Virus record (IMG/VR): IMGVR_UViG_3300009169_000012
Location: 1-34,335 of that record
DNA from: a virus
DNA length: 34,335 nucleotides
Direction: 5' to 3' (one strand)
Part shown: piece after piece, positions 1 to 34,335 of the stretch
Layout: every line of letters begins with the position of its first letter
Numbering within the stretch: position 1 is the first letter of the stretch
The notes under the pieces: model-generated
Databases searched by the model: none
What the model saw: only the letters and a program-made list of their open reading frames with translations
Told to the model about the DNA's origin: nothing
Made by a program: the position numbers and the translations under genes

Positions 1-123
1 ACAAGTTCAGGTTATTGTTTTAACGGAGTGTTTAGTCCATTAGACTTTTTAGATTTCCAAACTAACACGTATGTACTTCAAAATACTTCAAGTCAATTTC
101 TTACTGATAGACCAACTTTTGAA
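1..123. repeat. Left copy of the terminal direct repeat (circular genome overlap)
   Basis: These 123 bases are identical to the last 123 bases of the window. The reading frame entering at base 1 continues exactly the frame that leaves at the end of the window. The simplest explanation is a circular, or circularly permuted, genome whose assembly overlaps itself, not a biological terminal repeat, because the repeat lies in the middle of a structural gene. A short physical redundancy cannot be excluded from sequence alone. Confidence 0.93.
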
Positions 124-21126: not shown

Positions 21127-21388
21127 ACAGGCAAAAGTAGAATTTGAATCACATCTTTTAATTGGTTTATTCAAATCAACAGTTGAACAATCAACACAAT
21201 TAACTGGAAAATTTAAACATAAAATGAAAGCTGATTTTAATCTATGGCAAAAACAAGGTTTCAAAATAGTTGAAGAACTTGAAAAAAGAAATATAACAGA
21301 TGTTGAGTACTTAGATAAAATTGGCGATATTTATCATACTATGAACTCAACAATGCGTGATGAATTTTACAAAGGTTTGGAATCATGA
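21104..21388 (+). CDS. Uncharacterised helical protein (94 aa)
   Basis: A 94-residue helical, slightly basic protein (KVEFESHLLIGLFKSTVEQS, KMKADFNLWQKQGFKIVEEL) with no Cys and no membrane segment. It overlaps NinG by 23 bp and the methyltransferase gene by 4 bp, with the leader CAAAGAAC before its ATG. It belongs to the recombination operon. The function is not recognised. Confidence 0.65.
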   Translation: MEKALTIEQAKVEFESHLLIGLFKSTVEQSTQLTGKFKHKMKADFNLWQKQGFKIVEELEKRNITDVEYLDKIGDIYHTMNSTMRDEFYKGLES

Positions 21389-22026
21389 AATTAACTGATA
21401 AAATAGAAATTACTAATGAAGATAACATGGTTTTAATGGCTCGATATCCTGACAAGTATTTTGATTTAGCTATTGTTGACCCGCCTTATGGGATTGGAGC
21501 AAACAAGATGACTTTAGGTAATGGAAAGAAAAAGATTTATAGAGGTTTAAATGATTGGGACAAAACAATACCAAGCGAAAATTACTTTAGTGAATTATTT
21601 AGGGTAAGTAAAAACCAAATAGTTTGGGGTGGCAATTATATGACTGAGTTTTTACCGCCAACTTCAGCTTGGTTATTTTGGGATAAAATGACTGGATTAA
21701 ATGATTTTGCAGATGGTGAATTAGCTTGGACTTCATATAGTGTAGCATTAAGGAAAATAACTAAACAATGGTTAGGAGCTAATGCTAAAGATGGTTTATA
21801 GCGAATACATCCAACTCAAAAACCTATTTATCTATATTCATTTATTTTAAATAAGTTTGCCAAACCAACTGATAAAATACTAGATACTCACTTAGGCTCT
21901 GGCAGTATAGCAATAGCCTGTCACGATTACGGATTTGATTTAACCGCTTGTGAATTAGATAAAGAATACTTTGATAAGGCAATAAAAAGAATTAACAATC
22001 ATGTTGCACAATTAAAATTAATTTAG
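21385..22026 (+). pseudogene. Beta-class DNA methyltransferase interrupted by an in-frame TAG
   Basis: The frame encodes a DNA amino-methyltransferase (N6-adenine or N4-cytosine). The catalytic motif DPPYG is at residues 32-36, with IVWGGNY and AWLFWDKM following. Codon 139 (21799-21801) is TAG. Beyond it the same frame continues for 74 codons with RIHPTQKP (140-147) and the SAM-binding DTHLGSGS (167-174), then a natural TAG at 22024. The order DPPY then FxGxG fits the beta class. The stop separates catalysis from SAM binding, so the shortened product should be inactive unless the stop is read through. A sequencing error is possible. The promoter of RNA leader 1 lies over its 3' end. Confidence 0.82.
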
Positions 22027-22034
22027 TATATTTG
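22004..22034 (+). promoter_or_regulatory. Bacteroidetes-type promoter for RNA leader 1
   Basis: TTG at 22004-22006, 20 bases, then TATATTTG at 22027-22034, which fits the Bacteroidetes consensus very well. It overlaps the end of the methyltransferase frame. Transcription would start near 22039, exactly where the structured region begins. Confidence 0.78.
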
Positions 22035-22038
22035 CACT

Positions 22039-22163
22039 ATCGGATTCACTAACCGATTTCGGAAATAGCTTAACAGAAAAAACATTAGACCTCTAATGGT
22101 TCGGTGTAAGGAGTTAAGCCCTTACTTGATTAGTAATCAAAACCGAATCGTTAGGGGTTTTTT
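22039..22163 (+). ncRNA. Structured RNA leader 1 (three-way junction, loop pseudoknot, T-run)
   Basis: A 5' hairpin, ATCGG/CCGAT (22039-22057), is followed by element A, GCTTAAC (22068-22074). A 17-base arm (22089-22105) then pairs fully with 22142-22158, with three G-U pairs and no mismatch. Inside that stem are two hairpins: GTAAGG/CCTTAC (22106-22125) and TTGATT/AATCAA (22126-22140). Only A22141 stays unpaired at the junction. The 8-base loop of the first hairpin carries GTTAAGC (22113-22119), the exact complement of element A. A run of six T closes the element, and the next ATG follows at 22177. It could be an attenuator or riboswitch-like leader, or a small RNA. I recognise no known class. 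Confidence 0.72.
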
Positions 22164-22176
22164 AATTTATAAAACA

Positions 22177-22434
22177 ATGAAAACAAAATTTATTATCACT
22201 AATCTAAAAGATTTTTTTAAGCATGGATTTGATAAACCTTTTAAAATTTTAGAGCAAATAGAAGATCAAGTTCACAGAATTACAGAATCAGATAACATTC
22301 ATTTCGGAGATAAAACAAAAGTATTATTAGCTAATTATAGCGAAAATGGTTATGCAATTTTTGATTTATCATCTTATGAGTTTAAAAATAATTGCCATAT
22401 ATTTTATTATACTTTTAATTCAGTAGTATCTTAA
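22177..22434 (+). CDS. Protein of unknown function behind RNA leader 1 (85 aa)
   Basis: I start at 22177 (MKTKFIITNLKDFFKHGFDK) after the A-rich leader AAAACA. The frame is open upstream to 22096, but that stretch is the structured RNA. The 85-residue product mixes helix and strand, ends in an aromatic-rich strand (CHIFYYTFNSVVS) and has a single Cys. No family is recognised. Its position between two structured leaders and just before the initiator gene suggests a role in replication control or in response to the RNA signal; this is speculation. Confidence 0.62.
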   Translation: MKTKFIITNLKDFFKHGFDKPFKILEQIEDQVHRITESDNIHFGDKTKVLLANYSENGYAIFDLSSYEFKNNCHIFYYTFNSVVS

Positions 22435-22448
22435 TTAAAATTTATTTG

Positions 22449-22456
22449 TATATTTG
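22449..22456 (+). promoter_or_regulatory. Promoter -7 element for RNA leader 2 (TATATTTG)
   Basis: A perfect -7 element lies 14 bases after the stop of the 85-residue gene. No good TTG is seen at the usual distance upstream, so the promoter may be weaker or need an activator. Transcription would start near 22461, at the first base of the paired element. Confidence 0.62.
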
Positions 22457-22460
22457 CAAT

Positions 22461-22564
22461 GCTTACTCAGTTAAAAATGACATTAAAAATAATCCCACAA
22501 TCACATTGCCGAATGTACATTCTGTACTACTGGGTAAGCCTTTGTGTTTTGTGGGTATTTTTTT
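22461..22564 (+). ncRNA. Structured RNA leader 2 (pseudoknot-capable, T-run at the start codon)
   Basis: Element A, GCTTACTCAGT (22461-22471), pairs over 11 bases with ACTGGGTAAGC (22529-22539), with one G-U pair. Element B, CCCACAA (22494-22500) plus CACA (22502-22505), pairs with TGTG (22543-22546) and TTGTGGG (22549-22555). The order A-B-A'-B' means both pairings together form a pseudoknot. A small GTAC/GTAC hairpin (22515-22527) lies between. Seven T (22558-22564) follow, and the initiator ATG is only 3 bases further. The layout matches leader 1 and the A elements look related (GCTTAAC, GCTTACTCAG). It is a probable regulator of initiator synthesis. Confidence 0.68.
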
Positions 22565-22567
22565 AAA

Positions 22568-23200
22568 ATGAATTCATACGAACTTTCAAGAAATTTTTTT
22601 GATTGGAGTTTTGAAAATCCTCATAAAGTTACTCCAAATCATATAGCTTTATATTTTTTTTGCATTGAACATTGTAATCGTTTAGGTTGGAAACAAAATT
22701 TTGGTTTACCAACTACAATGGCAAAAGAGGCAATAGGTATTCGCTCTTATAATACTTATATAAAAACTTTAAATGATTTAGTTGATTTTGGATTTATTAT
22801 AATGATTGAAAAATCTAAAAATCAATATAGCAGTAATATAATTGCTCTATCAAATTTTAATAAAGCACATGATAAAGCACTTGATAAAGCAATGATAAAG
22901 CACATGATAAAGCAAGATGAAAGCACATTACAAAGCATTGATAGTATAAATAAACATAAAACAATAAACAATAAACAAATAACAATAATAGAAGTTGAGG
23001 ATTATTTTATTGAAAATGGTTATCGAAAAGATGTTGCAGAAAAATTTTATAATTATTACAATGTTTCAGATTGGAAAGATGCAAAAGGTAATAAAGTGAA
23101 AAACTGGAAACAGAAAGCACAATCAGTTTGGTTTAAAGATGAAAATAAAATAGGTAAAAAGAAATACGACCCAACAGACCCAAGACAAAATCATTACTAA
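22568..23200 (+). CDS. Putative replication initiator / helix-turn-helix protein with internal iterons
   Basis: A 210-residue protein. Residues 1 to ~95 read like a phage replisome-organiser winged helix (HIALYFFCIEHCNRLGWKQN, TTMAKEAIGIRSYNTYIKTL, DLVDFGFIIMIEKS). A polar linker follows at ~100-140, and it is in this stretch that the DNA carries seven phased repeats. The C-terminal part (VEDYFIENGYRKDVAEKFYN, DWKDAKGNKVKNWKQKAQSV) resembles the end of other phage initiators. I start at 22568 since the GTG at 22544 lies in the structured leader. It overlaps the primase-helicase gene by 1 bp. By position and linker repeats it acts like lambda O: it binds the origin and recruits the helicase. 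Confidence 0.72.
   Translation: MNSYELSRNFFDWSFENPHKVTPNHIALYFFCIEHCNRLGWKQNFGLPTTMAKEAIGIRSYNTYIKTLNDLVDFGFIIMIEKSKNQYSSNIIALSNFNKAHDKALDKAMIKHMIKQDESTLQSIDSINKHKTINNKQITIIEVEDYFIENGYRKDVAEKFYNYYNVSDWKDAKGNKVKNWKQKAQSVWFKDENKIGKKKYDPTDPRQNHY
22861..22993. other. Candidate replication origin: seven phased iterons plus AT-rich stretch
   Basis: TAAAGCAC-like units start at 22861, 22873, 22885, 22896, 22908, 22919 and 22931, that is every 12, 12, 11, 12, 11 and 12 bases. The full unit is close to GATAAAGCACAT. Because 11-base steps shift the reading frame, the protein does not repeat while the DNA does. An almost pure A/T/C stretch with repeated AATAAAC follows (about 22945-22990), fitting a DNA unwinding element. 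Lambda-type phages have the same arrangement inside their initiator gene. Confidence 0.65.
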
Positions 23201-24939
23201 TGACTTATTCAGATTACAACATAATAATTCCAAAAGGAAAATATACAGGTCAGGTTTATACAACTTGCCCGAAATGTAGCCATGAGCGTAAAAAGAAAAC
23301 TGATAAATGTTTAGGAGTTAATTTAGATAAACAAGTTTGGCATTGTAACCATTGTAATTATAAAGGATGGTTACCTAAGCAAATTCAAATTGATGAAAAA
23401 GTCTACGTTAAACCTGAATGGAAAAACAAAACAGAATTATCAGACAAAGCAATTAAGTGGTTTGAAAAAAGATGTATAGACCAGCAAACTTTAATAACTT
23501 GGAAAATTACCGAAGGTTTGGAGTGGATGCCACAAACTCAAAAGGAAGAAAATACAATCCATTTTAATTACTTTGATGAAAACAATGAATTAATAAATGT
23601 TAAATATAGGGATGGCAGAAAGTCTTTTAAACTCCATAAAGATTCTAAACTTATATTTTATGGTTTAAACTTGTTTAAATTCGATTTAAACGCTTTTTTA
23701 GTAGAAGGTGAGATTGACACACTTTCAATGTATAAAAGTGGCTATAAAAACGTTTTAAGCGTTCCTAATGGCGCAAATGTTTCTAATAACAATCTTCAAT
23801 ACTTTGATTACATTTCTGAAAGATTTAACGAAACTCCTGTAATTTATCTTTGTTTTGATAATGATAATGCTGGAAGACAATTAACAGAAGAGTTTGCAAC
23901 AAGATTAGGTAAAGAAAAATGTAAGTTAGTTATTTTTAAAGATTGTAAAGATGCAAATGAATGTTTAATTAAATACGGGATACAAGGTATAATTGAATCA
24001 ATACAGGATGCAAAAGATTATCCACTTGAAGGTGTGTTTACTATTCAAGACATGGAAAATGAAATATTTGATTTATATGAAAACGGATTAGATAGGGGAG
24101 TTAATGTAGGCTTTGAGAAATTTGATAGACTACTAACTTTTGTAAAAGGTTACATTACAACAATTACAGGAATACCTGGACATGGTAAATCAGATTTTTT
24201 AGATGAAATTGTTATTCGATTAATGTTAGGTCATGGATGGAAAACAGCTTTTTTCTCACCTGAAAATAAACCAACAAAACTTCATTTCAGTAAAATAGCA
24301 AGAAAGATAATTGGTAAAAGTTGGGATTCACAATACAGAAATAGAATGAATCAACTTGAAGTAAAAATCTGCATGAAGGCAATGAATGAAAAAATATGGT
24401 TTATTAAACCTGAAAAAGATTTTACACTTGAAAGCATTTTAGAACATATTAAAAATTTAAAGATTAGATACGGATTAGATGCGTTTGTAATTGATGCTTG
24501 GAATAAATTAGAACACAAATACAATCAAAGTGAAACTAAATATATTGGAGAAAGTTTAGAAAAAATATCTGTATTTTGTGAACAATATAACTTGCATTGT
24601 TTTTTAGTTGCACATCCAAGAAAAATAAATAAGGATAAACAAAGCGGAAAATATGAAATACCTAACCTTTATGATATTGCAGGGAGTTCAAACTTTTACA
24701 ATAAAACAGATAACGGAATTTCAGTTTACCGAACAGGAGAAAATAAAACATTTGTTTACGTTCAGAAAGTTAAGTTTTCACATTGGGGAACTATTGGGCA
24801 TTCAGAATACACTTATGATTTAAGTTCAGGAAGATATATTGAAGATGGGACATTCCATACAGCAGATAGTTGGGTAACAGTTGAACAGTCAACAATGGAA
24901 GAAAATAAAGAATTTTTAAACGAAAAAGAACCTTTTTAA
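23200..24939 (+). CDS. Primase-helicase (T7 gp4/Twinkle-like)
   Basis: A 579-residue fusion. The N-terminal zinc ribbon has Cys23, Cys26, Cys49 and Cys52 (TCPKCS, HCNHC). A TOPRIM-type primase core shows FLVEGEIDTLSMYKSGYKNV near residue 165 and YLCFDNDNAGR near 221. The C-terminal RecA-like helicase has Walker A GIPGHGKS near 325 and Walker B-like LDAFVIDAWNKLEH near 425. It should prime and unwind at the fork. With no phage DNA polymerase present, the host enzyme must copy the DNA. It follows the initiator directly (TAATG overlap). Confidence 0.9.
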   Translation: MTYSDYNIIIPKGKYTGQVYTTCPKCSHERKKKTDKCLGVNLDKQVWHCNHCNYKGWLPKQIQIDEKVYVKPEWKNKTELSDKAIKWFEKRCIDQQTLITWKITEGLEWMPQTQKEENTIHFNYFDENNELINVKYRDGRKSFKLHKDSKLIFYGLNLFKFDLNAFLVEGEIDTLSMYKSGYKNVLSVPNGANVSNNNLQYFDYISERFNETPVIYLCFDNDNAGRQLTEEFATRLGKEKCKLVIFKDCKDANECLIKYGIQGIIESIQDAKDYPLEGVFTIQDMENEIFDLYENGLDRGVNVGFEKFDRLLTFVKGYITTITGIPGHGKSDFLDEIVIRLMLGHGWKTAFFSPENKPTKLHFSKIARKIIGKSWDSQYRNRMNQLEVKICMKAMNEKIWFIKPEKDFTLESILEHIKNLKIRYGLDAFVIDAWNKLEHKYNQSETKYIGESLEKISVFCEQYNLHCFLVAHPRKINKDKQSGKYEIPNLYDIAGSSNFYNKTDNGISVYRTGENKTFVYVQKVKFSHWGTIGHSEYTYDLSSGRYIEDGTFHTADSWVTVEQSTMEENKEFLNEKEPF

Positions 24940-25115: not shown

Positions 25116-25173
25116 TATTCAATTTATTTTAATTGCTGTTTTCTTATTAGTTTGTTTAATTTTGTCTAAGTGA
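25096..25173 (+). CDS. Tiny hydrophobic membrane peptide (25 aa)
   Basis: The frame encodes 25 residues: a basic start (MKIKKTDIQ) and one membrane segment (FILIAVFLLVCLILSK). Its stop overlaps the GTG start of the sigma-like gene (GTGA). A peptide of this kind could be a small membrane effector. Its DNA also carries a good TAnnTTTG promoter, so the frame may be incidental. Confidence 0.4.
   Translation: MKIKKTDIQFILIAVFLLVCLILSK
25133..25164 (+). promoter_or_regulatory. Bacteroidetes-type promoter before the sigma-like gene
   Basis: TTG at 25133-25135, 21 bases, then TAATTTTG at 25157-25164, a full match to TAnnTTTG. It lies 6 bases upstream of the GTG start, so the transcript would be nearly leaderless for that start. 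It would give the regulator and the sugar genes their own promoter. Confidence 0.5.
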
Positions 25174-25667
25174 TTAGTGAGCTAGTAAATAACAAAATCT
25201 ACAAACAAATTACTCGGAATGTATGCCACAATCACGATTTATGCGATGACCTCCACTTTGAAGCTGTTTTAATTATTATAGAAAAAAAATTTGACTTAAC
25301 AGAAATTAGAAACCTTAAGCACTTTTTTTCAGCAGTAGTTTGGAGAACCTGGCATTCAAATAAATTTAGAAAAAAGTATTTTGTAGATCATGTTAAGTTT
25401 GTAGACAATTTAAACGAGATTATAGAGGAAAAAGAAAATATTGATTATTCAGTATTGATTAACTTTCTCGAAAGTTCACCGCAAAATGAAACAGAATTTT
25501 ATGAAGTCAATTTACTAAGATTGTATATTTTACATGGCGATGCAAAGAAATTAAGCAATAAAACAAAGATACCATACAGAACAGTAGCAAATGATATTAA
25601 ATTAATCAAAGACAAACTCAAACGACAGCACAATGAAAAAAATTCTGATAAAGGCGAATATGAATAA
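25170..25667 (+). CDS. Sigma-70-like / ECF-like regulatory protein, candidate late-gene activator
   Basis: A 165-residue protein. The first ~85 residues contain segments reminiscent of sigma region 2 (ICDDLHFEAVLIIIEKKF-type helices, then NLKHFFSAVVWRTWHSNKFR). Residues ~125-155 (HGDAKKLSNKTKIPYRTVAN, DIKLIKDKLK) form a sigma region 4-like helix-turn-helix. I chose the GTG at 25170 because it overlaps the previous stop (GTGA) and no ATG fits. It is the only sigma-like gene here and lies between early and late regions, so it may direct RNA polymerase to late promoters. The family match is by eye. Confidence 0.6.
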   Translation: MISELVNNKIYKQITRNVCHNHDLCDDLHFEAVLIIIEKKFDLTEIRNLKHFFSAVVWRTWHSNKFRKKYFVDHVKFVDNLNEIIEEKENIDYSVLINFLESSPQNETEFYEVNLLRLYILHGDAKKLSNKTKIPYRTVANDIKLIKDKLKRQHNEKNSDKGEYE

Positions 25668-26673
25668 CCTTAACGGGTTATCTTTTCACCGATTAATAGT
25701 TCCATTCTCAAAAGTATCCGACATTATAGACTTTCAATGTGATGTATTTCCTGACTTAGATGCAGCGACTGATGAACAGCTTAAAGAGTATTCAGCAGTT
25801 GTTTATCAAAGAGAAATAGATACAAACGGAAAATCACTTGAAATAATTAATAAATATCATTCATTAGGTATTAAAGTTATATTCGACATTGATGATATTT
25901 GGTCGTTGCCTAAAAGCCATTATTTAAGTAGGCTTTATGAAATTCACAACATCCCAGCTCAAACAGTCGAAATACTTAAAAATGTAGATTTAGTAATTAC
26001 GACTACCAAAAATTTAGCATCTAAGATTAAAAAGTACAATAAGAATGTTGAGGTAATTCCTAACTGTTTAGATCACGAAGATGAACAATGGAAACCTAAC
26101 AAAACTAAAAGCGACAAAGTTAGATTTGGCTACATTGCCGGAATTTTCCACAAAGAAGATATTTCAATTTTAGAAATGCCTATTCGTAAAGTATTAAGGC
26201 ATGATATAAACGCTCAATTTGTTTTAGGTGGTTACAATGACAACGAAGATTATCGCTATTATGAAAAGGTAATGAGTGGTGGCACTTTAACCGATAAATA
26301 TCAAAGAGTATATAGTTTACCCGTACATGATTATGGAAAGGCTTATAATGAAACTGATGTAAGCTTAATCCCATTGCAATCTAACTCATTTACCGAATGC
26401 AAAAGCGAAATTAAGTTACTTGAAGCTGGTTTACATGGCAATCCTGCAATCGTTAGTGATGTACTACCTTATAACATATTTCCAAAAGAAACAGCAATTT
26501 TTTTAAATAATAATGATATAAATGGTTGGTACAAGGCAATAAGAAACCTAAGCAAAGATGAATCTATGCGCAAAGAATATGCAGAAAGTTTACAAAAATA
26601 TATTGAAAAACATTATAACATAAACAAATGGACAGAAGTAAGAAAACAGATATTAAAATCGGTATTGGCGTAA
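25633..26673 (+). CDS. Glycosyltransferase, GT-B type (GT4-like)
   Basis: A 346-residue protein that begins MKKILIKANMNNLNGLSFHR, the usual first strand of a GT-B fold. The sequence contains VIFDIDDIWSLP near residue 77, VITTTKNLASKIKKYNKNVE, and a nucleotide-sugar binding half with LLEAGLHGNPAIVSDVLPYN near 257-276, where the Glu and Gly-x-Pro are typical of GT4 enzymes. It should move a sugar from a nucleotide donor to an unknown acceptor. It overlaps the sigma-like gene by 35 bp and the next transferase by 46 bp, so the seven sugar genes form one unit. Confidence 0.78.
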   Translation: MKKILIKANMNNLNGLSFHRLIVPFSKVSDIIDFQCDVFPDLDAATDEQLKEYSAVVYQREIDTNGKSLEIINKYHSLGIKVIFDIDDIWSLPKSHYLSRLYEIHNIPAQTVEILKNVDLVITTTKNLASKIKKYNKNVEVIPNCLDHEDEQWKPNKTKSDKVRFGYIAGIFHKEDISILEMPIRKVLRHDINAQFVLGGYNDNEDYRYYEKVMSGGTLTDKYQRVYSLPVHDYGKAYNETDVSLIPLQSNSFTECKSEIKLLEAGLHGNPAIVSDVLPYNIFPKETAIFLNNNDINGWYKAIRNLSKDESMRKEYAESLQKYIEKHYNINKWTEVRKQILKSVLA

Positions 26674-27284
26674 CAACAACTCCAAATCGTAAAGAATACG
26701 TTGATAGGTGGTTAGAATACTTTGAGAAGTTTAAACCTTCTAATTACCATCTGCACATTCACGAAGATGTACATTACAAAGGAGTTGCATACTCAAAGAA
26801 TCAAAATTTATACACTTTAAGAGATTGCGACTATATTTTCTTATTTGATGATGATTGTTTTCCTATAAAATCTAATTGGTCAAAGTTCTTCATAAACTCA
26901 AATTATAATCACTTACTATACTTAGAACCAAAACATACGATTAAAACAAAAATCAACGATTTAGAGACTTATAATGACTGTGGTGGTGTATTTATATACT
27001 TAACAAAAGAAGTATTAAATAAAGTAGGTTATTTTAATTCAGAGTATGGTCAGTATGGATTTGAACATGCAGGTTACTCAAACAGAATTTATAAAGCAGG
27101 ATTAAACAATGCTCCCTACCAACAATTAACAGGAACAGATAAATACATTTGCGCCTTAGATTATATTATTGAACACAAATCAAGTATTCCTGAATATAAA
27201 AAAGCAAAGTTAATAGAAGAAAATCGAAAAGTATTTATAAAGGAATTGCAAAGTGAAAAAATCTTTTATAACTTTGAAGAGTGA
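26628..27284 (+). CDS. Glycosyltransferase, GT-A type (GT2-like)
   Basis: A 218-residue protein. GIGVTTTPNRKEYVDRWL at the start and DYIFLFDDDCFPI near residues 68-80 show a GT-A fold with its acidic metal site (Asp74-Asp76). A later segment, FEHAGYSNRIYKAGL near 145-160, fits the acceptor side. It is shorter than most GT2 enzymes. The donor and acceptor are unknown. It overlaps both neighbours. Confidence 0.75.
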   Translation: MDRSKKTDIKIGIGVTTTPNRKEYVDRWLEYFEKFKPSNYHLHIHEDVHYKGVAYSKNQNLYTLRDCDYIFLFDDDCFPIKSNWSKFFINSNYNHLLYLEPKHTIKTKINDLETYNDCGGVFIYLTKEVLNKVGYFNSEYGQYGFEHAGYSNRIYKAGLNNAPYQQLTGTDKYICALDYIIEHKSSIPEYKKAKLIEENRKVFIKELQSEKIFYNFEE

Positions 27285-27979
27285 ACGAACACATACTATT
27301 TAAACTAGCTACTCGCAGCAGACCACAAAAGGCAAAAAAAGCAATTGAGAATATTATAATGCTTTGTAATTCAATGAATTATACTATTTTAGTTAGCATT
27401 GATGAAGATGACGAAAGTATGTTTGGTTTTAGTTACCCTGATGATAATGTATTTATAGTTAGAGGCACTTCAAAAAATAAAATTGATGCCATCAATCGAG
27501 ACATGGATATTTTTGAAGGTTGGGACATTTTAATCAATACTTCAGATGACATGGTATTTGAAATTAAAGGATTTGACAATATAATTAGGCAAGACTTTAA
27601 AGGAAACTACGACCAGGTTCTTCATTATTCAGATGGGAATCAACACGCAAACATTATGACAATGAGTATAATGGGCTTCGATTATTATAATCGTTTTGGT
27701 TATATTTACCATCCCGATTACAAGTCATTGTGGTGTGATGCTGAAGCTACTGAAGTAGCACATCTACTAGGTAAATATGAGTACATGGGAGATCAAAAAG
27801 TATTATTTACTCATAGGCATCCTGCATGGGGATTATCTGAATATGATGAACAATACAGAAAGACTGAAAGTCAAGAAATGTGGAACACAGACTATAATTT
27901 GTTTAAATATAGAAAGTCAGAAGATTATTTTTTACCTAAACATTTAATTATAAATAAACCTAAATACAATAATGTATAG
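27281..27979 (+). CDS. Glycosyltransferase-like protein, GT-A fold
   Basis: A 232-residue protein starting at a GTG that overlaps the previous stop (GTGA). FKLATRSRPQKAKKAIENII at the start and TILVSIDEDDESMFG near residue 35-49 look like the nucleotide-binding half of a GT-A enzyme; WDILINTSDDMVFEIKGFD near 80-98 carries the acidic metal-site pair. Near 175-195, FTHRHPAWG could be part of the catalytic pocket. Its specificity is unknown. Confidence 0.68.
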   Translation: MNEHILFKLATRSRPQKAKKAIENIIMLCNSMNYTILVSIDEDDESMFGFSYPDDNVFIVRGTSKNKIDAINRDMDIFEGWDILINTSDDMVFEIKGFDNIIRQDFKGNYDQVLHYSDGNQHANIMTMSIMGFDYYNRFGYIYHPDYKSLWCDAEATEVAHLLGKYEYMGDQKVLFTHRHPAWGLSEYDEQYRKTESQEMWNTDYNLFKYRKSEDYFLPKHLIINKPKYNNV

Positions 27980-28574
27980 TCAAAATAACGAAGAACAAAT
28001 TATATTAGAATACTTTAAAGATTTTAAAGGTAATTTATTAGATATTGGAGCAAATGATGGTGTAACTTTATCAAACAGCAGAAAGTTAATTGAATTAGGT
28101 TGGAGTGCAGATTTAGTTGAACCTGCTCCTATTCCATTTAAACAATTACAAGAACTTTATAAAGAAAATAACAAAGTTAAATTACATAATTGCGCTATAA
28201 GTGATTTTACTGGCATAACTTCATTTTATGTTAGTGGTGAACATTTAGGCAAAGGTGATAGTGGTTTGCTTTCTACTTTATCAATTAAGGATAAACAAAA
28301 ATGGGAAGGCACAACTGATTATTTTGATTTAACAGTTCAAACTTATAATTGGCAAGATTTTAATAAATCCAAGAAATATGACTTTATTAGTATAGATGCT
28401 GAAGGATTTGACTTGTCAATACTTAAACAAATAAACTTAGATGAATTTAATGTTCAAATGGTTTGTGTTGAACATAATAACATAGATACTCAATTTTATA
28501 TGGAATATTTAGAATCATTCTATTTTCAACCAATTTTAATAAATAACGAAAACATAATAGCAGTAATATCATGA
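27972..28574 (+). CDS. FkbM-family methyltransferase
   Basis: A 200-residue SAM-dependent methyltransferase. NLLDIGANDGVTLSNSRKL near residues 20-38 is the SAM-binding motif I, ADLVEPAP near 45-52 motif II, and YDFISIDAEGFDLSILKQI near 136-154 the FkbM signature. This family commonly O-methylates sugars on polysaccharides. It overlaps the neighbours by 8 and 4 bp. Together with the next gene it suggests that the phage glycan is methylated. Confidence 0.85.
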   Translation: MYSQNNEEQIILEYFKDFKGNLLDIGANDGVTLSNSRKLIELGWSADLVEPAPIPFKQLQELYKENNKVKLHNCAISDFTGITSFYVSGEHLGKGDSGLLSTLSIKDKQKWEGTTDYFDLTVQTYNWQDFNKSKKYDFISIDAEGFDLSILKQINLDEFNVQMVCVEHNNIDTQFYMEYLESFYFQPILINNENIIAVIS

Positions 28575-29185
28575 GAGTTCATCCTGTTTATAGTTCTGAA
28601 GAGGTTTTAATGTTTACCTATAAAATGTCAATTGATATTTTAGAAAAAGATATTAAAGGAGATTTTATTGAATGTGGAGTTGCTGCTGGTAGTCAAATAG
28701 GTGCAATGCAACAGGCAATGTTAGATAAACAAATATCAAGAACTATTTGGGGATTTGATAGTTTTGAAGGAATACCATTTGCAGGAATAAATGATACAGA
28801 ACAACCAGGAATAGGTGAAATTGATATAAATAAAATTGGAGTATTAGAAACAACAAGTATTGCATCATATTCACAAGAAGATGTATTAAAAAACTTTCAA
28901 TTATGGAATTTACCAACTAATAATTTAAAATTGATAAAAGGATGGTTTGAAAATACAATTGAACCAACATCAAAAGAAATAAAAGAAATTGCAATGTTAA
29001 GATTAGATGGTGATTTATATTCATCTACTTATGTTTGTTTAGAACATTTATTTGAAAAAGTAGTTATTGGTGGAATTATAATAATAGATGATTGGAATTT
29101 AACAGGATGTCAAAAAGCAGTAAAAAAGTTTATTGATGGAAGAAAAATAAAGAAATTTAACGAAATAGCATATTTTATAAAATGA
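28571..29185 (+). CDS. TylF/MycF-type sugar O-methyltransferase
   Basis: A 204-residue protein of the macrocin O-methyltransferase (TylF) type. GDFIECGVAAGSQIGAMQQA near residues 31-50 is the SAM site, IWGFDSFEGIPF near 58-69 a family signature, and MLRLDGDLYSSTYVCLEHLF near 138-157 plus IIIIDDWNLTGC near 166-177 complete the metal-binding acidic residues. These enzymes methylate sugar hydroxyls with a metal ion. It overlaps the next transferase gene by 4 bp. Confidence 0.88.
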   Translation: MRVHPVYSSEEVLMFTYKMSIDILEKDIKGDFIECGVAAGSQIGAMQQAMLDKQISRTIWGFDSFEGIPFAGINDTEQPGIGEIDINKIGVLETTSIASYSQEDVLKNFQLWNLPTNNLKLIKGWFENTIEPTSKEIKEIAMLRLDGDLYSSTYVCLEHLFEKVVIGGIIIIDDWNLTGCQKAVKKFIDGRKIKKFNEIAYFIK

Positions 29186-29763
29186 TTTTATCAATCCTTA
29201 TTCCTACTGTACCTCAACGTACTAACTTATTTTTAGAGTTACATTCTGAAATAAATAAGCAGTTAGAGTTATCAAATTCTTTTGGCTTAGTTGAGGTTAT
29301 TTCAGATGATGCACCAAAAGGAACTAAAACAACAGGACAAAAAAGAAACGATTTACTAAATGCAGCGCAAGGAGAATATGTTTGGTTTATTGATGATGAT
29401 GATATGATAATGCCTAATGCTATTTATAACATAATTACAGCCTTAGAACAAAAACCTGATGCACTAGCCATTAATGGAATAATGACAACTAATGGAAGAG
29501 ATAAAAAGGAATGGTATATTAGTAAGAATTTAGAATATACTGCTGACTGGTCAAAAGGTTATGAAATTTATTTAAGACCTACAAATCACATTACTCCAAC
29601 AAAAAGAGATATTGCAAGGCTAATAAAATTTGAAGATAAAAGCAACTTTGAAGATTATGCTTATTGCATGGAACTAAAAAGATTAGGTCTAATTAAAACA
29701 GAAGTAGAAATAAAAGAACCTGTTTACCATTACAGATACCAAGACTATGATAAACTATACTAA
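29182..29763 (+). CDS. Glycosyltransferase, GT2 family
   Basis: A 193-residue GT-A enzyme. ILSILIPTVPQRTNLFLEL at the start, KTTGQKRNDLLNAAQGEYVW near residues 49-68 and FIDDDDMI near 69-76 give a clear GT2 core, with the DDD metal site. The C-terminal part (FEDYAYCMELKRLGL) matches the acceptor half. It overlaps the next gene by 17 bp. Its specificity is unknown. Confidence 0.82.
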   Translation: MILSILIPTVPQRTNLFLELHSEINKQLELSNSFGLVEVISDDAPKGTKTTGQKRNDLLNAAQGEYVWFIDDDDMIMPNAIYNIITALEQKPDALAINGIMTTNGRDKKEWYISKNLEYTADWSKGYEIYLRPTNHITPTKRDIARLIKFEDKSNFEDYAYCMELKRLGLIKTEVEIKEPVYHYRYQDYDKLY

Positions 29764-30457
29764 GGTAGCTATTGTTACTTTTTTTGATGAAAAGGAAAAA
29801 TACAAGTTAGCAGGTAAAAGACAATCAGAATCTTTACAGGCTATTAATTTTCCAATGGAAAACTATTTTCAGTTTAGAAACTTTGAAGAAATTAACTCAC
29901 CTGAACATACAGAAATACCTTACGCGTTTAAACCTAATGCAATTAATGAAATAAGAAAAAAAGGATTTGAAATAATTATTTGGATGGATAGTCCTGTTTA
30001 TTCCATTAAGTCAATTGATAAATTTATTGAATACATAAATATTAACGGTTTTATATTCTTTGATAACTTAGGATATACAATAGGAGACTATACATCAGAT
30101 GATTGTTTAAATAACTATTCAATGGCTAGAGACGAATCATTTAAGCATCCTATGATAATGGCTTGTTTAATGGGATTTAATTTTAAGAACGAAAAATCAA
30201 ATAAACTATTTAAAGAATACTTAAAAGCTACAAGTATAAAAGGATGTTATGAAGGAGAGTGGACCAATGAATCAAATCAAGTAAGTCAAGACAATAGAGT
30301 TAAAGGACATAGACATGATCAATCCGTAATGAGTATTTTATTAGCAAAAGAGAAAATTAAACCATTGCATCCTCATTCGACTTTCTTCGCTTATTTTGGA
30401 AATCCTGGTCATTTACCTCATGCAGAATCAGTTTGTTTATTAAGTCAAGGCTACTAA
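29747..30457 (+). CDS. Glycosyltransferase-like protein, end of the sugar locus
   Basis: A 236-residue protein. VAIVTFFDEKEKYKLAGKRQ opens the fold, FEIIIWMDSPVYSIKSIDK near residues 74-92 carries an Asp in the place of a transferase metal site, and VKGHRHDQSVMSILLAKEKI near 184-203 matches the His-Asp-Gln motif common in sugar transferases of this general kind. The family is less sure than for its neighbours. The stop overlaps the next ATG (TAATG). Confidence 0.6.
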   Translation: MINYTKVAIVTFFDEKEKYKLAGKRQSESLQAINFPMENYFQFRNFEEINSPEHTEIPYAFKPNAINEIRKKGFEIIIWMDSPVYSIKSIDKFIEYININGFIFFDNLGYTIGDYTSDDCLNNYSMARDESFKHPMIMACLMGFNFKNEKSNKLFKEYLKATSIKGCYEGEWTNESNQVSQDNRVKGHRHDQSVMSILLAKEKIKPLHPHSTFFAYFGNPGHLPHAESVCLLSQGY

Positions 30458-33877: not shown

Positions 33878-34335
33878 CAATATACAATACACCTAACAGC
33901 TACGCACCCGTTTATAATCAAATGATTTTTACTTTGAGTTCAACAAACGTTGCTCAATCTAATTTTCGTTACATAGCAGATATTTATGTAAATGGTTCAA
34001 GTGATTACACTAGATTAGAAGTAGGCAGAAATCCAAGTAACAATAATGGAACATTTGATGTGGCAGGTATCATTCAAAATTTTTTAACTAGGGACGCAGA
34101 TGACAATACAACTACATTTAAGCAATGTGTAAACTCAATAGCATCTTATATAGTTCAATTTGGTGAGCAGTATGGTGCAAGTAGTGGAATAACGAACTAT
34201 CCTAACTTAACTACAAGTTCAGGTTATTGTTTTAACGGAGTGTTTAGTCCATTAGACTTTTTAGATTTCCAAACTAACACGTATGTACTTCAAAATACTT
34301 CAAGTCAATTTCTTACTGATAGACCAACTTTTGAA
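33868..34335 (+). CDS. Phage tail/baseplate-type structural protein, N-terminal part (continues at base 1)
   Basis: The ATG at 33868 begins MAITIYNTPNSYAPVYNQMI, and the frame runs off the end of the window. The 123-bp overlap shows that it continues in register at base 1 and ends at 876, for 406 residues in all. The first ~115 residues are beta-rich (FRYIADIYVNGSSDYTRLEV, ASYIVQFGEQYGASSG) with a phage structural flavour. For the remainder see the entry at 1-876. Confidence 0.75.
   Translation, partial: MAITIYNTPNSYAPVYNQMIFTLSSTNVAQSNFRYIADIYVNGSSDYTRLEVGRNPSNNNGTFDVAGIIQNFLTRDADDNTTTFKQCVNSIASYIVQFGEQYGASSGITNYPNLTTSSGYCFNGVFSPLDFLDFQTNTYVLQNTSSQFLTDRPTFE
34213..34335. repeat. Right copy of the terminal direct repeat (circular genome overlap)
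   Basis: This is identical base for base to positions 1-123. Removing one copy gives a circle of 34,212 bp. See the left copy for interpretation. Confidence 0.93.

Follow-up and report, generated by a model that had tools for sequence, protein, structure and literature searches.

Introduction

The replication genes of phage lambda lie behind a terminator, and in the P4 CI RNA and c4-type immunity systems a leader RNA and premature termination precede the replication functions of the phage. The leader of T4 gene 32 is structured as a pseudoknot. Closest in architecture to the locus described here is the HMP-PP (thiS motif) riboswitch, embedded in a terminator, with a shared apical hairpin, a pseudoknot and a terminator-excluding stem; in its ON state the pseudoknot and the alternative stem are set against a terminator that shares their tip (PMC6478431). 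Leader-acting transcription antitermination is described for the LoaP leader (PMC12691694), the 5′ leader of T4 gene 32, a phage replication gene, is a target of autoregulation (PMC535899), and the c4 antisense RNA constitutes Rfam family RF01695 (available part of PMC2864571, a survey of 104 candidate RNAs in whose available text no comparable motif was noticed).

The present element resembles the HMP-PP riboswitch in outline and differs from it in having no conserved loop and ligand core, in the hypervariable letters of its pseudoknot, and in standing before phage replication genes; as it lacks a conserved ligand core, the likeness does not make it an established riboswitch, and what sets it apart from HMP-PP is the published architecture, together with an Rfam search that gave no match. 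With the leaders of LoaP/RfaH type, lambda nut and HK022 put, it shares an RNA hairpin near the promoter and, after it, a terminator ahead of an operon; unlike in these, the pseudoknot lies within the terminator itself, and no antiterminator protein or boxA-like site was identified. The T4 gene 32 leader, in contrast, acts on translation through its own protein, without a terminator. The P4/c4 antisense systems differ in turn, since the element matches nothing in Rfam and no antisense promoter was seen nearby (no minus-strand TANNTTTGC promoter, the type searched for, near the element in the window).

In what follows it is argued, at a probability of roughly 0.6 and from sequence, that the element, transcribed as the leader of a replication module, acts in cis as a transcription attenuator. 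If this is true, the replication genes of many flavobacterial phages would be preceded by an RNA switch of an undescribed type, whose terminator is joined through a pseudoknot to the beginning of the transcript it belongs to. Literature searches, whose coverage of subscription journals was poor, found no account of such leaders, and we know of no earlier description of replication control of this kind in Bacteroidetes phages.

Anatomy of the Element

The window, that is, the whole stretch of DNA analysed, is a virus record of 34,335 bases and 30% GC in which the large ORFs all lie on one strand. An initial annotation had described, within 22089–22158, a compact fold in which a 17-bp stem with three G-U pairs encloses two hairpins. 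This fold was recovered exactly, P1 joining 22089–22105 to 22142–22158 with zero mismatches and A22141 being the sole unpaired base of the three-way junction (Table 1). Bases 22039–22163 have a minimum free energy (MFE) of -38.8 kcal/mol against a mean of -22.6 for shuffled sequences (z -4.71), and 1 of 200 dinucleotide shuffles folds as well. Three further claims, a promoter 4 bases ahead of the structure, a loop GTTAAGC complementary over 7 bases to 22068–22074, and six T after the stem, held equally: the promoter, TTG-N20-TATATTTG, which is of the Bacteroidetes type, ends at 22034, 4 nt before the predicted +1 at A22039; the loop complementarity is present and covaries in relatives; and P1, a G+C-containing stem, closes directly on U6, as is expected of an intrinsic terminator. 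Two features had escaped that description, the 5′ hairpin at 22039–22057 and a hairpin at 22083–22098, which cannot coexist with P1 because the P1 5′ arm is used in both. An in-frame AUG at 22096, which would lengthen the 85-aa gene into P1, was discarded, being unconserved in the relatives inspected by eye.

Table 1. Features of the element and of the genes and second leader that follow it (window coordinates).
Feature	Position	Strand	Remarks
Bacteroidetes-type promoter (predicted)	22004–22034	+	TTG 22004–22006, N20, TATATTTG 22027–22034; pattern search
5′ hairpin ATCGG-ATTCACTAA-CCGAT	22039–22057	+	Sequence-conserved in 34/34 distinct relatives; stem invariant except one G-U
Pseudoknot 5′ strand GCTTAAC	22068–22074	+	Perfect partner in P2 loop; strongly covarying 7-mer
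Antiterminator-like hairpin CATTAG-ACCT-CTAATG	22083–22098	+	Arms 22083–22088 and 22093–22098; mutually exclusive with P1
P1 (terminator stem) 5′ strand	22089–22105	+	Fold and covariation
P2 hairpin GTAAGG/CCTTAC	22106–22125	+	Stem 22106–22111/22120–22125; loop A22112 + GTTAAGC
Pseudoknot 3′ strand GTTAAGC	22113–22119	+	Inside P2 loop; 7 bp with GCTTAAC
P3 hairpin TTGATT-AGT-AATCAA	22126–22140	+	Stem 22126–22131/22135–22140; fold and covariation
P1 3′ strand	22142–22158	+	Fold and covariation
U-run (U6), intrinsic terminator	22158–22163	+	Kept in all relatives
First downstream gene, 85 aa	22177–22434	+	No family match; unrelated genes instead in relatives
Second promoter-pseudoknot-terminator leader (type 2)	22449–22566	+	z -3.18; TATATTTG 22449–22456
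Type 2 pseudoknot GCTTACTCAG with CTGGGTAAGC	22461–22470 with 22530–22539	+	GCTTATCCGA/TCGGATAAGC in relative L064, compensatory
Type 2 terminator CCCACAA/TTGTGGG, U7	22494–22500/22549–22555	+	Precedes replication genes
Replication-associated gene, 210 aa	22568–23200	+	Weak PHROG match, O-like replication initiation, E 0.0034
DNA primase/helicase	23200–24939	+	PHROG 239, E 5e-97

Relatives and Covariation

Relatives were gathered by a search with the 85-aa protein, by the exact P2 pattern, and by two pattern scans of IMG/VR, and in all some 60 contigs of uncultured phages carry the element, nearly all with the same promoter type ahead of it; in 11 phage records it is present in exactly one copy each. 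A pattern scan of genome contigs returned almost only chance matches, the one real member (L165) lying in a phage-like contig within a Bacteroidetes MAG; 199 genomes related to this MAG held zero further members, and cultured phages, searched by blastn with the element, yielded no meaningful match.

The initial annotation had read the G-U pairs of the long stem as a sign of selection on RNA, to be checked by compensatory changes in relatives, and these are abundant. In 34 distinct sequences (alignment A2, fitted to an effectively sequence-only model) 98.5% of the cells of the structure, pseudoknot included, are paired, and 22 of the 40 pairs are altered on both sides (198 cells), with a covariation score of 0.415 against 0.140 ± 0.008 for shuffled 3′ partners and at most 0.062 for slid partners. 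P2 is paired in 100% of cells (4/6 pairs altered on both sides) and the pseudoknot helix in 99.5% (5/7). Every helix is thus supported by covariation except that of the 5′ hairpin, the stem of which shows no variation among the 34 sequences. This hairpin, ATCGG-N8/9-CCGAT, is at the same time the most conserved part of the family in sequence; among unpaired bases only its loop and short A-rich linkers are conserved, and the other helices drift freely. As the fold is kept while the letters change, the element looks like an RNA control leader, apparently new and widespread, and it represents a real, conserved family of leaders, one part of a wider architecture in flavobacterial phages.

The pseudoknot carries this furthest. 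The classes CTATAAC, GAAGTAC, CTGTAAC, GAGTAAC, CATCAAC, CATTCAC, CAATCAC, CATCTAC, CTATCAC, GGTCAAC and GATTGAT each find a full 7-bp partner in their own P2 loop, which amounts to 77 of 77 pairs in these 11 parsed classes, while partners re-dealt among them give a mean of 58.9 and a maximum of 70 in 10,000 re-dealings. By eye, the class of the window (GCTTAAC) and that of L082 (GCAAAAC) also pair completely, and that of L025 (GCTCATC) pairs at six of seven positions; the pairing is hence 7/7 in 13 of 14 sequence classes and 6/7 in one. Some pseudoknots differ at most positions within an otherwise identical scaffold, and the comparisons L025/L026 and L005/L031, in which the pseudoknot differs and the remainder is nearly identical, indicate that it evolves faster than its own scaffold. 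Such a hypervariable, always-paired strand offers a natural mutational experiment on co-transcriptional RNA folding.

Neither Rfam 15 (cmscan of the whole window at gathering thresholds, 0 matches) nor a relaxed search of 21950–22620 (two chance-level matches only, neither on the element) places the RNA in a described class, in agreement with the initial annotation, which recognised no riboswitch or ribozyme. The absence of a match would be compatible with a ligand-binding riboswitch of a new class, its aptamer embedded in the terminator, and so would an architecture near that of HMP-PP (terminator tip, pseudoknot, exclusive alternative stem); this is very improbable, however, as there is no conserved unpaired core beyond the 5′ hairpin, P2, P3, the pseudoknot and the upper part of P1 change freely, and the associated genes belong to phage replication or are accessory, not metabolic. 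Selection on shape rather than on letters, and the ring-like form that a pseudoknot gives to the three-way junction by closing it, would also suit a structure that stabilizes the mRNA or stalls nucleases by resisting degradation from one end. To this we give the least credence of all, since it leaves the U-run and the spacing between terminator and start codon unexplained, and, in contrast to the 5′–3′ nuclease-resistant RNAs known to us, it has its pseudoknot partner on the 5′ side. A type III toxin-antitoxin (ToxIN) was considered and rejected: the pseudoknot unit is single, with no tandem repeats, and the downstream gene is unconserved.

Position and Downstream Genes

Wherever downstream sequence is available (46 of the 48 listed loci), the start codon lies 12–16 nt past the U-run, in 46 cases out of 46. 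The element is always on the strand of the downstream gene, and it keeps this constant position before different genes: about a dozen unrelated first genes follow it in the 48 listed loci, among them the 85-aa family, a DEAD/SNF2-like helicase, DUF6291, Lin1244_N, a putative DNA methylase, a beta-solenoid protein and small unknowns. There is no room for another promoter before the first gene, so expression of the downstream genes requires transcription to pass the terminator. Within the window the order of the module is the element, the 85-aa gene, a second leader, the replication-associated gene and the primase/helicase.

The initial annotation had left three options, an attenuator controlling the 85-residue gene, a stand-alone small RNA, or a protein-binding leader. 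An attenuating leader is favored by the 12–16 nt spacing, the unrelated genes and the competing hairpin discussed below; the restriction to the 85-residue gene did not stand, the regulated unit being better described as the replication module, whose transcription the element most probably attenuates. A small phage RNA that stands alone, some 125 nt long and acting in trans while the downstream gene is expressed by incidental read-through, would account for an own promoter, a strong terminator, and a compact, highly structured RNA whose helices are kept by pairing and not by letters. It is nonetheless unlikely: the fixed distance to a start codon, on the gene strand and before unrelated genes, is the mark of a cis leader, the loops hold no conserved target-like sequence except that of the 5′ hairpin, and different leader types swap in front of the replication genes.

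In contig L018 a gene related to the 85-aa one, at 44% identity, is preceded (402–560) by a promoter-terminator leader of quite another kind, which has a long stem and a hairpin capped by GTAA; it follows that leader types are exchanged at that site.

The Competing Hairpin and a Proposed Mechanism

In most relatives the sequence AACATTTAG ahead of P1 repeats the P1 3′ arm and pairs with the P1 5′ arm. The resulting hairpin has 9 bp in most relatives and 6 bp in the class of the window; against shuffled linkers it reaches p<0.05 in 17 of 21 distinct sequences, which are mutually non-independent. It is weak in the class of the window, where near-identical relatives give p values of 0.07–0.16. 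Diverged sequences usually rebuild it, with changed letters in L082 and L083 and elsewhere in L034; none was found in L080. When MFE folds are computed on a growing chain, the hairpin persists in most classes to 7–13 nt before the end, and once the leader is at full length the terminator is always favored. With 9 nt hidden in the polymerase, the nested pseudoknot state of type 1 is 1–13 kcal/mol weaker than the terminator, and in several other leader types it equals or beats it; these energies are indicative only, as pseudoknot terms are ignored.

From these folds we infer a switching between the hairpin/pseudoknot state and the P1 terminator, by co-transcriptional competition. The nascent RNA would first fold the hairpin between linker and P1 5′ arm, around which the pairing with the P2 loop would close the pseudoknot, giving an antiterminated state; as the P1 3′ arm emerges, strand exchange would produce the 17-bp terminator and the RNA polymerase would stop, in such a way that the downstream genes would be made solely by polymerases reading through. 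The balance could be tipped by (i) a protein on the conserved 5′ hairpin, (ii) the speed of the polymerase, or (iii) an RNA in trans, and the pseudoknot may favor either stopping or reading through.

The high stability of P1, which prevails in every full-length fold, might equally be expected of a constitutive insulating terminator, which would block upstream transcription and hold the replication genes at a fixed low level, its pseudoknot serving as reinforcement and the 5′ dyad as the DNA operator of a repressor. The dyad is indeed invariant and sits at the predicted +1, and since covariation is lacking in its stem across the 34 sequences, RNA hairpin and DNA operator are indistinguishable there. 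Ordinary terminators, however, require neither a pseudoknot nor a mutually exclusive hairpin, a 1-nt change in the length between the arms is more easily reconciled with an RNA hairpin than with a dimer operator, and Nekkels_1 (see below) may form a different, bulged 5′ hairpin, all of which makes this explanation a rather unlikely one.

A more speculative extension, to which we attach only a small probability, is that the terminated leaders act in trans: as genomes multiply, their hypervariable pseudoknot strands would pair with leaders of their own type that are still being transcribed and would alter termination before the replication genes, in a plasmid-like control of copy number and compatibility. 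If such feedback is true, the diversification of seven pairs within constant scaffolds would define compatibility groups among co-infecting phages.

Other Leaders of Similar Architecture

Besides the second, different leader of the window (type 2, Table 1), leaders of this architecture were sought by a strict scan, which asked for a promoter, a terminator stem, a U-run, and a pseudoknot in which 7 or more Watson-Crick pairs join the leader to the apical part of the terminator. Nine flavobacterial phage sequences gave 8 matches, all on the gene strand, and over 13 sequences (571 kb, including crAss001 in part, B40-8, P12002L and 6H) the 8 matches compare with a mean of 0.9 per shuffle; some Bacteroidetes phages are thus without such a leader. 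Fragments of host contigs (304 kb) yielded 1 match versus 3 in shuffles, that is, no excess. In sniff9-1 and hattifnatt9-1 the leader precedes gp44-gp45-primase, a second hattifnatt9-1 leader precedes a helicase, that of elemoA stands ahead of a replication protein and primase, and that of Nekkels_1 ahead of genes leading to primase; 11b, FCOV-F15 and the window make up the rest of the eight. A leader with a TATATTTA promoter is present in phi10:1. As cultured phages of Flavobacterium and Cellulophaga carry such leaders, the proposal is testable now.

Among 68 IMG/VR loci, selected for nothing but a gene related to the replication-associated one, 31 have a match, compared with 0.33 per shuffle pass. 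On inspection about 8 of these turned out to be plain terminators mis-scored (pseudoknots “AAACCCAT” and “AAGTCCGTTT”), which leaves about 23, and as 6–7 of the 68 lie on contigs already found through the type 1 element, the sample is not fully independent. Searched against Rfam, the leader loci L210, L213 and L217 gave nothing but a tRNA.

These other types share with type 1 the architecture and not the sequence. The sniff9-1 family, present in 46 Flavobacterium phage records, shows compensatory changes in its pseudoknot (GTGAGACG/CGTCTCAC, GTGGAACG/CGTTCCAC, GTGAGAAG/CTTCTCAC), and a fourth family has GTTGCGG, GTCGTGG, GTAACGG, CAACGAC, TATCGAC and CTTCGAC, each with its partner. The idea that the 5′ strand of the pseudoknot always lies in a hairpin loop, forming kissing loops, was abandoned, since p<0.05 against shuffled flanks was obtained in only 6 of 32; kissing-loop stems in several leaders other than type 1 are suggestive. 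In the sniff9-1 set (L210, L245, L246) an extra helix, CATTTG/CAAATG, flanks the pseudoknot; it is altered on both sides in mumin6-1 (CATTCG/CGAATG) and is not kept in morran9-1.

Nekkels_1, a cultured Cellulophaga phage, would be a distant member of type 1. Its leader has a P1 of 19 bp, a P2 with an 8-nt loop (C + GTTAGAC), and the corresponding pseudoknot strand GTCTAAC, whose distance from the promoter is roughly that of type 1. Its exclusive hairpin (AAATAAAG/CTTTATTT) has 8 bp and letters other than those of type 1; in growing-chain folds the pseudoknot helix closes around this hairpin before P1 forms. Since fold and position are common to both and little of the sequence is, that it is a type 1 homologue is something we infer.

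Genome and Surroundings

An exact 123-base direct repeat at the ends of the window (1–123 and 34213–34335) suggests a circularly assembled genome, and on this ground the phage genome is probably complete. The host is flavobacteria-like, and the methyltransferase gene that directly precedes the element has its closest relatives in Flavobacterium phage 11b and in Lillamyvirus. GC skew across the window has no inflection at the element, so a replication origin there is unsupported, and no integrase was noticed among the window genes in a non-exhaustive scan. Between the primase/helicase and the terminase genes lies a cluster of glycosyltransferase and methyltransferase genes (25633–30457), and at 25170–25667 a 165-aa protein without a PHROG match resembles, by eye, a sigma factor of small size or a helix-turn-helix protein; in phage P12024L a protein annotated as sigma-70 region 2 occupies a comparable place.

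The reading frame of the DNA methyltransferase gene (21385–22026) is broken by an in-frame TAG at 21799–21801 (DGL*RIHPTQKP), and L006 holds an intact relative. As TAG also serves as an ordinary stop in 3 of 47 window ORFs, a broken gene or a sequencing error appears likelier than recoding.
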